DNA of 64,000 nucleotides, taken from Prochlorococcus sp. AG-402-L09 (lineage in GTDB: Bacteria; Cyanobacteriota; Cyanobacteriia; PCC-6307; Cyanobiaceae). Made by a program: the position numbers and the translations under genes. Shown piece by piece: positions 11,135-40,976 of this stretch (position 1 is the stretch's first letter; each line of letters opens with the position of its first letter). Where the stretch lies: contig QCIK01000002.1 in the NCBI GenBank assembly GCA_003216715.1, forward strand, positions 1 to 64,000, read 5' to 3'. Under the pieces are notes generated by a model. That model was not told the DNA's origin and made no database searches. It worked only from the letters and a program-made list of their open reading frames with translations.

Positions 11135-11752
11135 ATGTCTCAATTAAGTATCAAAGTTAGCGCTAAAGGCGAAGCCATGATCGCTACTCTTCAAAAGGAA
11201 ATTTTTAACCGAAGAAGAAAAAAAGTAACAGCATCACAAGTTGTTGAAACTCTTGTAGAGAGCGGGGCTAAGTCACAATCTGATAAGCGTTATGCTGCTT
11301 CTTGGAAAAACTTAATAAAGGATATTGAGAAAGCTGCAAAAGTTTCTGAGTTACATGGTAATAAGCCGGCAAATGTTAGTGCTGATGAATGGGCTTTGAT
11401 TCTTTCTCACCGTACTCGTAAGTCCTCAAGTGCTAAGAAGGTATCAGCAAAACCCTCAGCTAAAAAGGCTGCTGTCAAGAAAACTGTTGCTAAAAAGGCC
11501 GCCATCAAAAAAACTGCTGCTAAAAAAGTAATTGCAAAGAAAGCAGTAACTAAAGCTGCTCCAGCCAAGAGCGCTGCAAAAGCAAAAGTCAAGACTTCTA
11601 AAGTTAAAACAGCAGTTAAGAAAGTAGCTTCTGCTCAAGCTAAAAAAGCAACTTCAATCGCTAACTCAGTTTCAAAGAGAGCATCTAAGGCTGTAGCGGG
11701 AAGACCTGCTAAGCGTGCAAGAAAAGTTAGTCTTAAAGCTGTAAAAGCTTAG
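11135..11752 (+). CDS. Histone H1-like protein with globular N-domain and lysine-rich tail (205 aa)
   Basis: Residues 1-90 form a domain starting MSQLSIKVSAKGEAMIATL and continuing RRRKKVTASQVVETLVES. The second half is a tail of Ala-Lys-Lys repeats like that of eukaryotic H1 and bacterial HctB-type proteins. It ends with AGRPAKRARK, an AT-hook-like GRP core. It is probably a DNA-binding, nucleoid-associated protein. A paralog at 22165-22683 has a nearly identical N-domain but a shorter tail. Both genes are followed within about 10 bp by the same folded RNA element. Tail repeats cause spurious open frames on the other strand. Confidence 0.8.
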   Translation: MSQLSIKVSAKGEAMIATLQKEIFNRRRKKVTASQVVETLVESGAKSQSDKRYAASWKNLIKDIEKAAKVSELHGNKPANVSADEWALILSHRTRKSSSAKKVSAKPSAKKAAVKKTVAKKAAIKKTAAKKVIAKKAVTKAAPAKSAAKAKVKTSKVKTAVKKVASAQAKKATSIANSVSKRASKAVAGRPAKRARKVSLKAVKA

Positions 11753-20808: not shown

Positions 20809-21087
20809 TTTGTGTAATCACATAAAGATTTCAACTGGATTTATTCGATAGATTTAATTTCTTTAACGCAATTGTCTTTTCCCTATCAATTAAAAAATTT
20901 AGAACCTTTTTACTTAATTGAGAAGGATTTTTCAATTAATCGTTTTTAAACCTTTATAAGCTACTTTTCCGAAAATTTAGGTACGGACATATTTTTGTAG
21001 CTCGCTAATTCATTCAAACAACAAAAGTTTTCCACAGCTCCTATATGCTTAATATTGACTAAATCCCTCTATAAAAGGTTTTCCAAT
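20809..21087. other. Intergenic region, nothing recognised
   Basis: AT-rich sequence between the nuclease gene and the paired-terminator element. I see no coding frame, hairpin or repeat worth naming. Confidence 0.5.
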
Positions 21088-21322
21088 AAAAAAGACCCTA
21101 GGTATGGTGTCCTACGGGTCTGGGTGATGGGGATACTATTTCTAACCCTATTTCCCATATAAATCAACCCCCCCCTACAGATGGTGTTCATTTAAGTTTG
21201 CGATAAAACATATAGTGCTTTAATGTTGCCTAATCTGATTGATTTGATTATTATTTTTGAAAAGCTGGGTGATGGGGATCCTTCAGCAGTTTATTTTGCC
21301 CTCATGATATGAGGGCTTTTTT
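21088..21322. ncRNA. Divergent small-RNA element, locus 1
   Basis: The element contains no coding frame. At the left is a minus-strand terminator (stem GACCC/GGGTC plus TAGG/CCTA, T-run at 21093-21088). At the right is a plus-strand terminator (GCCCTCAT/ATGAGGGC, T-run from 21317). Just inside each sits the same 15-mer, CTGGGTGATGGGGAT, at 21120-21134 and 21265-21279, in the same orientation. Two RNAs transcribed outward from the centre would therefore carry mutually complementary segments. TTGCGA, 17 bp, TAATGT (about 21199-21227) is a possible rightward promoter. A second locus at 37678-37921 has the same design in inverse orientation. Confidence 0.6.
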
Positions 21323-29210: not shown

Positions 29211-29243
29211 GTTTTTGATTTATTGATTAGATCTTAGCTAGAC

Positions 29244-29897
29244 CCCAAACTTACTATTTTTGATCAGGTTAAGTGGAAATGCAATGGGCATTAAGGCTGA
29301 TTGCGTTGAGGTGCGAATAGAGCAAAGATACGTTTGTTGAGTTAAGAGGCACCATTGATGGTCGACACTCCACCTGAGTATTTAAGAGAAGCGAACTGAA
29401 TTCTGGTTCCTGCTCCAACATTCTCAATGAATAAGTGGGCTATTCGTCTGATGCGACAAGGATCAATGATTTAGGTGCGTCAATTCAGTCGAAACTCCTC
29501 TGCATCGTTTAGGTGCCCTAACGGAGTAAAAAAGCCTTTCTACTAGACACTTGGCCCCAGGCCACCAATATCCAGAAGCTTCCAAAGAATCGGTAAAGAA
29601 AAAGGGCCCCCTAGGGCCCTTTTTAAATGTCTAATTAAAAGAGGTTTATTTTTTCTACGGTTTCCCTACCTAAGACGTACGGTCCTACAGAACTATTGAA
29701 GAAAAGGAAATTTTAGGATAGATGTACGTCAGGCAATTAATTGAATTGGTCATCAATTAATTGGCTTCTGGGGGGGAGCACTGACGTTTTTTATTCAAAG
29801 GAACAACCTTCTAAAGCTCAGTATAAAAAGAAGGTTGTCCTGAGAAGTTCAAAAAATATAAGAACAAACCACTGTCAGCCGTGTAGGAATAATTACT
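29244..29897. repeat. 654-bp perfect direct repeat, copy 1
   Basis: Identical over its whole length to 40133-40786, in the same orientation and offset by 10,889 bp; line-by-line comparison shows no difference. It has no convincing reading frame. A 42-codon minus-strand opening (29470-29342) lacks a start codon. It contains hairpins (TGGCC-cca-GGCCA at 29552-29564, a strong terminator at 29599-29625, and a long stem around 29799-29840), so it probably encodes one or more non-coding RNAs. Confidence 0.95.
29599..29625. terminator. Bidirectional terminator inside repeat copy 1
   Basis: AAAAAGGGCCC-ccta-GGGCCCTTTTT is nearly symmetric and should work in both directions. The same sequence is at 40488-40514 in copy 2. 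It would end a plus-strand RNA that starts earlier in the repeat. Confidence 0.85.
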
Positions 29898-29928
29898 CAA
29901 AATACCGGTTTTTTATTTTCTCTAAAGA

Positions 29929-37677: not shown

Positions 37678-37921
37678 CATAAAAAAACCCTCAAATTTGA
37701 GGGAGAAGATACTGAGAGATCCCCATCACCCAGTAATTCAAAAATACTACTCGCTATATACATATTACGCAAGCTAATAATTCCAGATATGGGTCTTTTT
37801 TTCTGTTTTTTTAATCTTTCTAACACCAGATATGGTAGGGGTTGCAATTTGGTTGAAAAACAGTTAAAAATAAGATCCCCATCACCCAGGCCCATAGGAC
37901 ACCATACCTAGGGTCTTTTTT
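37678..37921. ncRNA. Divergent small-RNA element, locus 2
   Basis: Same design as 21088-21322 but inverted. The left hairpin CCCTCAAATTTGAGGG (37688-37703) has a T-run on the minus strand. The right hairpin GGCCC...GGGTC (37889-37915) has a T-run on the plus strand. The 15-mer ATCCCCATCACCCAG occurs just inside each (37719-37733 and 37875-37889). The right end is nearly identical to the left end of locus 1 over about 47 bases; the centre has diverged but keeps spacing and short blocks such as TTCAAAAATA. No open frame fits. Confidence 0.6.
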
Positions 37922-38102
37922 ATTAGAATTGCTTTTTATTTAGATCTTGGAGTTATTTAGTGACTCTGAGGCTGTGGAAAACTTAGACCGCTTGAAGTAA
38001 TTTTTTTACAGAATGATCGATTAGATAAACATTCACTTCGTGCTAACCGTAACACTAAATATTTTTAGATCAGTTAGGTTTGTTCAAACAATTTTCTGAT
38101 AC

Positions 38103-40104: not shown

Positions 40105-40132
40105 ATTGATGGTTTGAGGTAAAAGTCCATAT

Positions 40133-40786
40133 CCCAAACTTACTATTTTTGATCAGGTTAAGTGGAAATGCAATGGGCATTAAGGCTGATTGCGTTGAGG
40201 TGCGAATAGAGCAAAGATACGTTTGTTGAGTTAAGAGGCACCATTGATGGTCGACACTCCACCTGAGTATTTAAGAGAAGCGAACTGAATTCTGGTTCCT
40301 GCTCCAACATTCTCAATGAATAAGTGGGCTATTCGTCTGATGCGACAAGGATCAATGATTTAGGTGCGTCAATTCAGTCGAAACTCCTCTGCATCGTTTA
40401 GGTGCCCTAACGGAGTAAAAAAGCCTTTCTACTAGACACTTGGCCCCAGGCCACCAATATCCAGAAGCTTCCAAAGAATCGGTAAAGAAAAAGGGCCCCC
40501 TAGGGCCCTTTTTAAATGTCTAATTAAAAGAGGTTTATTTTTTCTACGGTTTCCCTACCTAAGACGTACGGTCCTACAGAACTATTGAAGAAAAGGAAAT
40601 TTTAGGATAGATGTACGTCAGGCAATTAATTGAATTGGTCATCAATTAATTGGCTTCTGGGGGGGAGCACTGACGTTTTTTATTCAAAGGAACAACCTTC
40701 TAAAGCTCAGTATAAAAAGAAGGTTGTCCTGAGAAGTTCAAAAAATATAAGAACAAACCACTGTCAGCCGTGTAGGAATAATTACT
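40133..40786. repeat. 654-bp perfect direct repeat, copy 2
   Basis: Identical to 29244-29897 in the same orientation. Its left boundary is at CCCAAACTTACT and its right boundary at AATAATTACT; the flanks then differ at once. It contains the same hairpins and bidirectional terminator (40488-40514). Recombination between the copies would release the 10,889 bp between them as a circle. Confidence 0.95.
40488..40514. terminator. Bidirectional terminator inside repeat copy 2
   Basis: Same GGGCCC...GGGCCC hairpin with A- and T-runs as at 29599-29625. Confidence 0.85.
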
Positions 40787-40976
40787 TAACATCTATTCAT
40801 CATTGATATTATTAATTTGTTTGTGTAATTGATTAGTAATATTTATGTAGTCAATCTTTTGTATTTATAAATTTTTTATTGAAGTATACCGAAAGGCAAT
40901 TAACCCTATCGGTCTTTACGGTCTCTGAGGCTGATTGGGAGTGGTTAAATTTACACCTGATTTATTTTTATTTTCG

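Follow-up and report, generated by a model that had tools for sequence, protein, structure and literature searches.

The window (the whole 64,000-nt stretch of Prochlorococcus DNA analysed here) contains, at locus 1, two outward-pointing intrinsic terminators with a 15-mer, CTGGGTGATGGGGAT, directly inside each of them (Table 1). These features had been noted in a sequence-only reading, which also described the stretch as free of coding frames, and on all of these points it proved accurate. No ORF of at least 41 aa lies within 21088-21322. The left terminator, on the minus strand, reads GACCC(G)TAGG-ACACCATA-CCTAGGGTC, then TTTTTT, and ends at 21088; the right one, on the plus strand, occupies 21298-21316 and is followed by T6. 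The 15-mer is exact on the plus strand in both places at locus 1 and twice more, on the minus strand, at locus 2. When up to three mismatches were allowed, five matches were found in the window against 0.62 expected, a number that no dinucleotide shuffle reached. Since the 15-mers are direct repeats on the DNA and transcription would be divergent, the two predicted RNAs, here called L and R, would carry complementary copies, as the same reading had proposed; at both loci, L and R are perfectly complementary over 15 nt.

A coding role was rejected, because both RNAs have only short frames opened by ATGGGGATC, which vary from element to element; similarly, no conserved small-peptide ORF of the kind that would mark a type I toxin-antitoxin system was found in the two RNAs. 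The closest relatives of the 106-aa gene that neighbours the locus are 78-92% identical to it over the matched stretches, and all of them come from Prochlorococcus single-cell genomes.

Table 1. Positions of the features of loci 1 and 2 in the window
Feature	Position	Strand	Details
DnaA-box-like site TTTTCCACA, locus 1	21028-21036	+	61 nt outside the L terminator
Divergent pair, locus 1	21088-21322	L minus, R plus	two outward intrinsic terminators and paired 15-mers
RNA L, predicted, about 47 nt	21088-21134	-	5' tail AUCCCCAUCACCC; terminator hairpin 21094-21120; U run 21088-21093
First 15-mer, CTGGGTGATGGGGAT	21120-21134	+	complement forms the 5' tail of predicted RNA L
Promoter of RNA L, predicted	21139-21167	-	-10 TAGAAA 21139-21144; -35 TTGATT 21162-21167; 17-nt spacer; read from sequence
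NrdR-like box 1, CCCCTACAGATGGTGT	21172-21187	+	17.4 bits; adjoins the -35 element of RNA L
Second NrdR-like box, degenerate, ATAAAACATATAGTGC	21203-21218	+	31 bp from box 1; -6.7 bits
Promoter of RNA R, predicted	21226-21254	+	TTGCCT-17-TATTAT; consensus scan; conserved in the genus alignment
RNA R, predicted, about 60 nt	21262-21322	+	5' hairpin GCUG-GGUGAUGGGGAUCCUU-CAGC, then terminator 21298-21322
Second 15-mer, CTGGGTGATGGGGAT	21265-21279	+	inside the 5' hairpin of predicted RNA R; copies the rpoD4 translation start
Locus 2, same divergent layout	37719-37924	-	R 15-mer 37719-37733; L 15-mer 37875-37889; L terminator about 37890-37924
Weak NrdR-like box, locus 2	37823-37838	-	6.7 bits
DnaA-box-like site TTTTCCACA, locus 2	37973-37981	-	same relative place as at locus 1

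Structure and distribution of the predicted RNAs L and R

The conserved minus-strand promoter implies that RNA L should begin at, or just before, the CCCC. In the predicted fold of the resulting 47-nt RNA, the 5' tail is unpaired over 13 nt and is followed only by the terminator hairpin. The core of this tail, GGTGATGGGG, is kept in 38 of 41 distinct elements that were anchored without requiring the motif, a figure that leans upward because some of these loci had originally been fetched by a pattern containing it. As for the promoters, the number found by the consensus scan was not above chance; the L promoter has the form TTGNNN-17-TARAAR in 57 of the 67 elements that bear an NrdR-like box.

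RNA R differs in that its 15-mer region forms a 5' hairpin. Among 27 distinct R elements, GGUGAUGGG remains constant and the closing stem changes in a pairwise manner (GCUG/CAGC, ACUG/CAGU, GGCCG/CGGUC). In the stem alignment (n=16), 88.8% of the cells pair and covariation amounts to 0.355; 4 of 500 shuffles score as high, and none of the slid versions does. Cofolding of L with R yields a predicted gain of about 17 kcal/mol. Taken together, the conserved promoters and terminators, the exposed tail of L, and the covarying hairpin of R make a well-supported case, from sequence, for a pair of mutually complementary divergent small RNAs.

The pair is conserved throughout the genus and, in a variant form, across marine picocyanobacteria. 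The sequence-only reading had suggested looking for homologues that keep both 15-mers, and most genomes of the genus do keep them, at a spacing of about 145 nt (locus 1) or 156 nt (locus 2); some Prochlorococcus genomes have a third locus of this kind. When 25 locus-1 homologues are aligned, conservation is seen in the terminator on the left, in the first 15-mer together with the flanking TATTTCTAAC, in a block reading CAACCCC..GATGGTGT, and in the promoter, 15-mer, and terminator on the right. With 62 nt of the left half as the query, homologues were found in 118 of 400 family genomes (37 of 59 genera). A looser L pattern, consisting of the terminator and GGTGATGGGG, matched 272 of the 400, and this pattern also catches L-like copies outside any pair; the reversed pattern gave no match among those listed. 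Synechococcus-type genomes have the right element, with a terminator of its own, at a distance of about 140-160 nt. In some lineages, L and the rpoD4 site described below are kept without a nearby copy of R. The L pattern is also found in genera without a match to the rpoD4 start pattern, mostly at terminators 3' of genes and without a box; the rpoD4 start pattern is strict, undercounts, and misses nearly all of the genus Prochlorococcus.

Several related sequences were observed in other contexts. In six cases, CCCCATCACC stands directly before a terminator in a gene 3' region that lacks an NrdR-like box: three copies (L268, L253, and L256) are 3' of a gene whose product ends in GSGFDTADD or similar, and three others (L257, L258, and L271) are 3' of one ending in GKSSRKKDSDG. 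These box-less copies are possibly 3'-derived relatives of RNA L. At another site, L071, an R-type 5' hairpin (GACTGGGTGATGGGTCTCAGTC, 11469-11490) lies upstream of a 60-aa ORF (MNLGLLFLESVSTG...), possibly a second mRNA with the motif. A phage origin of the pair was rejected: viral contigs matched in numbers of only 3 and 2, and two of them (L274 and L276) are host-like. The first of these, an IMG/VR contig filed as viral, has a locus-2-like pair and is probably host DNA.

NrdR-like and DnaA-box-like sites

NrdR is a dATP-sensing repressor of ribonucleotide reductase genes. As the block between the two promoters resembled NrdR boxes, a matrix was built from the boxes in nrdJ promoters of the family, and the elements were scored independently. 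Box 1 of locus 1 is the best match to this matrix in the 64-kb window (the next best reaches 11.4 bits), and it is the sole strong NrdR-like box at either locus. Other lineages have a strong second box at the corresponding position, and the nrdJ promoters of the family carry similar paired boxes. In most of 27 stretches, the box pair had a higher score than any of 60 shuffles of that stretch. Among 93 distinct elements, which include close relatives, 67 have a box that scores 6 bits or more, as do 74 of 4000 control segments, and a box pair is present in 20, versus 2 of the 4000 controls, with start-to-start distances of 40-41 or 30-34 bp. According to published work, efficient NrdR binding is obtained with spacers of 14-17 or 24-27 bp between the 16-bp boxes; in many family elements, the distances are these same two. 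The genome encodes NrdR itself (TIGR00244, above the cut-off), and the boxes are candidate NrdR binding sites.

As an NrdR-like box, the loop of the L terminator (21095-21110 and 37899-37914) reaches 10.3 bits. Another sequence common to both loci is TTTTCCACA, which corresponds to a cyanobacterial DnaA box. Its only exact copies in the window are the two listed in Table 1, one per locus, and in 38 elements, many of them close relatives, it lies beyond the L terminator at a distance of 59-62 nt.

Complementarity to the rpoD4 translation start

When the genome was searched for the 15-mer with at most one mismatch, the only matches were the four copies in the pairs and a single further site, at C8:6673. 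There, CAGGGTGATGGGGAT shares 14 of the 15 bases and coincides with the ribosome-binding site and start codon of a sigma-70 gene, whose start reads GAGGCCAGGGTGATGGGGATCCCGCTGG. A published qPCR primer for PMM1697 is exact in the HL orthologue of this gene (L216) and has one mismatch in a second sequence (L213), versus seven in a paralogue; from this primer match, we identify the gene as the group-2 sigma factor RpoD4/PMM1697. This identity would agree with the arrangement of the five sigma genes in a complete HL genome. The principal factor SigA had also been considered and was dropped, as length, gene order, and the published primer all point to RpoD4. Published work describes a daily cycle of RpoD4 and an increase under nitrogen depletion.

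Across 24 family genomes, GGAG..CCAGGGTGATGGGGATCCCTCTGGAATCT is essentially invariant, and the bases on either side fall to 30-80%. The Shine-Dalgarno sequence, the GTGATG start, and the first eight codons of rpoD4, synonymous positions included, are near-invariant in the same genomes. L and rpoD4 match perfectly over 13 nt, with a duplex energy of -28.3 kcal/mol and a cofolding gain of about 16 kcal/mol. Potential L targets were checked genome-wide by pattern search, and energies were compared at the 44 long-ORF starts in the window, where complementarity to L reaches at most 7 nt and -15.9 kcal/mol. What is found here, a 13-nt match conserved in 24 genomes, is the conserved complementarity to an mRNA start that is expected of a trans-acting antisense sRNA. 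The rpoD4 start, like R, is able to form a CUG/CAG-type hairpin. This complementarity is evidence for pairing between L and rpoD4 rather than proof of it, since the site is too invariant for compensatory change to be visible.

Proposed regulation, alternatives, and known systems

In Prochlorococcus, the nearest logic is that of Yfr1/Yfr2/Yfr10, whose members are likewise short, end in terminators, and have conserved motifs that complement one another. Genes of the Yfr10 and Yfr2 types are neighbours, and one RNA keeps the other from its mRNAs. The same kind of cross-talk is predicted here, where the unpaired tail of L faces the complementary hairpin of R. However, the Yfr motif ACUCCUCACAC is absent from L and R, which carry CCCCAUCACC and its complement; the Yfr genes are in tandem and those of L and R divergent; and the present pair has an NrdR-like operator and an outside partner, rpoD4. 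Published work that examined whether Yfr1 targets PMM1697 classed it as a non-target. Other opposite-strand RNA pairs of Prochlorococcus, Yfr6/Yfr14 and Yfr8/Yfr9, overlap over long stretches and include a possible peptide, whereas L and R do not overlap and have 15 nt in common. Yfr6/Yfr14 was considered for its proximity to nrdJ and its opposite-strand partner and was dropped, as Yfr6 is a Downstream-peptide RNA leader. The paired 16-bp boxes resemble the NrdR regulon in their spacing and in their match to the nrdJ boxes of the family, but the units that they would control are predicted small RNAs and not ribonucleotide reductase genes.

Sigma factors are known sRNA targets in enterobacteria, where rpoS is under sRNA control, and decoy RNAs such as the chb decoy for ChiX are also found there. 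The resemblance lies in an sRNA that acts at a translation start and is titrated by a second RNA imitating the target; the present system differs in that regulator and decoy are placed back to back around one operator, at two or more loci, and there is no sequence relation. With Rfam 15, no family matched in the window and nothing came near threshold at the locus, where the weak matches (E above 1) were taken as chance. Literature on NrdR and small RNAs, on NrdR in Prochlorococcus, and on rpoD4 and sRNAs yielded no such system. No published description of the pair was found in the open literature that was searched; L and R may be among the NATL2A sRNAs Yfr106-108, and hence already named.

The observation is confirmed and conserved, and it extends beyond what the sequence-only reading had seen; a regulatory interpretation, here a proposal, is well founded on sequence. 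We propose, with a probability of roughly 60%, that L, under the control of NrdR, regulates rpoD4 translation by an antisense mechanism and that R is a decoy that titrates L. The two short RNAs would be transcribed divergently, L being little more than a bare antisense tail and a terminator. This tail, AUCCCCAUCACCC, would pair with rpoD4 over its ribosome-binding site and its start codon and lower RpoD4 translation; repression is the expected direction because the pairing site spans both of these elements. R, whose 5' hairpin displays the letters of the rpoD4 start, would capture L and set a threshold. The promoters of both RNAs would share the NrdR operator region, and as box 1 adjoins the -35 element of L, NrdR would repress L at least. 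A shortage of dNTPs would then release NrdR, L would rise together with nrdJ, and RpoD4 would be restrained. Because L and rpoD4 are both kept without a nearby R in some lineages, they look like the core of the system, and R like an added tuner.

In marine picocyanobacteria, protein regulators are few and the daily schedule is tight, with replication in the afternoon. More broadly, the pair may belong to a widespread, unnamed picocyanobacterial module in which an NrdR-run divergent sRNA and decoy set RpoD4 translation, thereby coupling dNTP supply, and perhaps replication initiation via the DnaA-like box, to daily transcription; we hold this extension only tentatively, at somewhat below even odds. 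If it is true, nucleotide pools would act on a sigma factor by a direct route, small RNAs would join the NrdR regulon, and there would be a reason for the frozen state of the 15-mer and the first rpoD4 codons across genomes.

The earlier suggestion of an antisense or sponge pair survives in part: the complementary divergent RNAs stand and a sponge role fits R, but a purely mutual antisense pair does not fit; the rpoD4 start carries the R sequence. This bears directly on the quite improbable case of a closed system in which the RNAs of the two loci interact among themselves alone and have no outside target. It would account for the perfect 15-nt complementarity of L and R at both loci, but the rpoD4 start bears the same sequence, and the lineages that keep L and rpoD4 with no R nearby imply that the pair is not obligatory. 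The persistence of L without R also weakens a reversal of roles, which we consider unlikely though the strongest of the alternatives, in which R is active, L a mere antagonist, and R titrates a common factor (an RNA-binding protein or RNase) off the rpoD4 hairpin. The letters common to R and the rpoD4 start, the CUG/CAG-type hairpin possible in both, and the presence of the hairpin at the 5' end of a small-ORF mRNA (locus 3) are in its favour; that the core of the L tail is kept beside gene-3' terminators suggests that L pairing is the constant element.

The copies of this core next to box-less terminators in gene 3' regions argue, along with the terminators placed directly at both ends and the covariation of the R stem, against a control region acting solely as DNA, in which there would be promoters and operators, the 15-mers would bind proteins, and no RNA would have a function. 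The operator-like boxes, and the fixed distance of the DnaA-box-like site, would suit such a region, to which we give slightly less weight than to the closed system. A single plus-strand transcript over the region was rejected, as the sequence upstream of L is unconserved save for the DnaA-like box. Least probable of all, if narrowly so, is one longer known transcript spanning the region, for example Yfr103. This RNA and Yfr106-108 belong to published sets (PMC5069720, PMC7368042); Yfr103 is abundant, multi-copy, 290-328 nt long, and present in NATL1A/2A and marine Synechococcus. Its host range is similar to that of the pair, and a palindrome lies at -29 to -58 from its start, but its length does not fit, the sequence upstream of the pair is unconserved, and both length and copy number are better matched by a repeat located at 29232 and 40121 of the window.

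This non-coding direct repeat of about 680 bp (29232-29911 and 40121-40800) is 97% identical between its copies, with a 341-nt core that is 100% identical. It has two copies in the genome and an GGGCCCCCTAGGGCCC terminator, and its length fits Yfr103.
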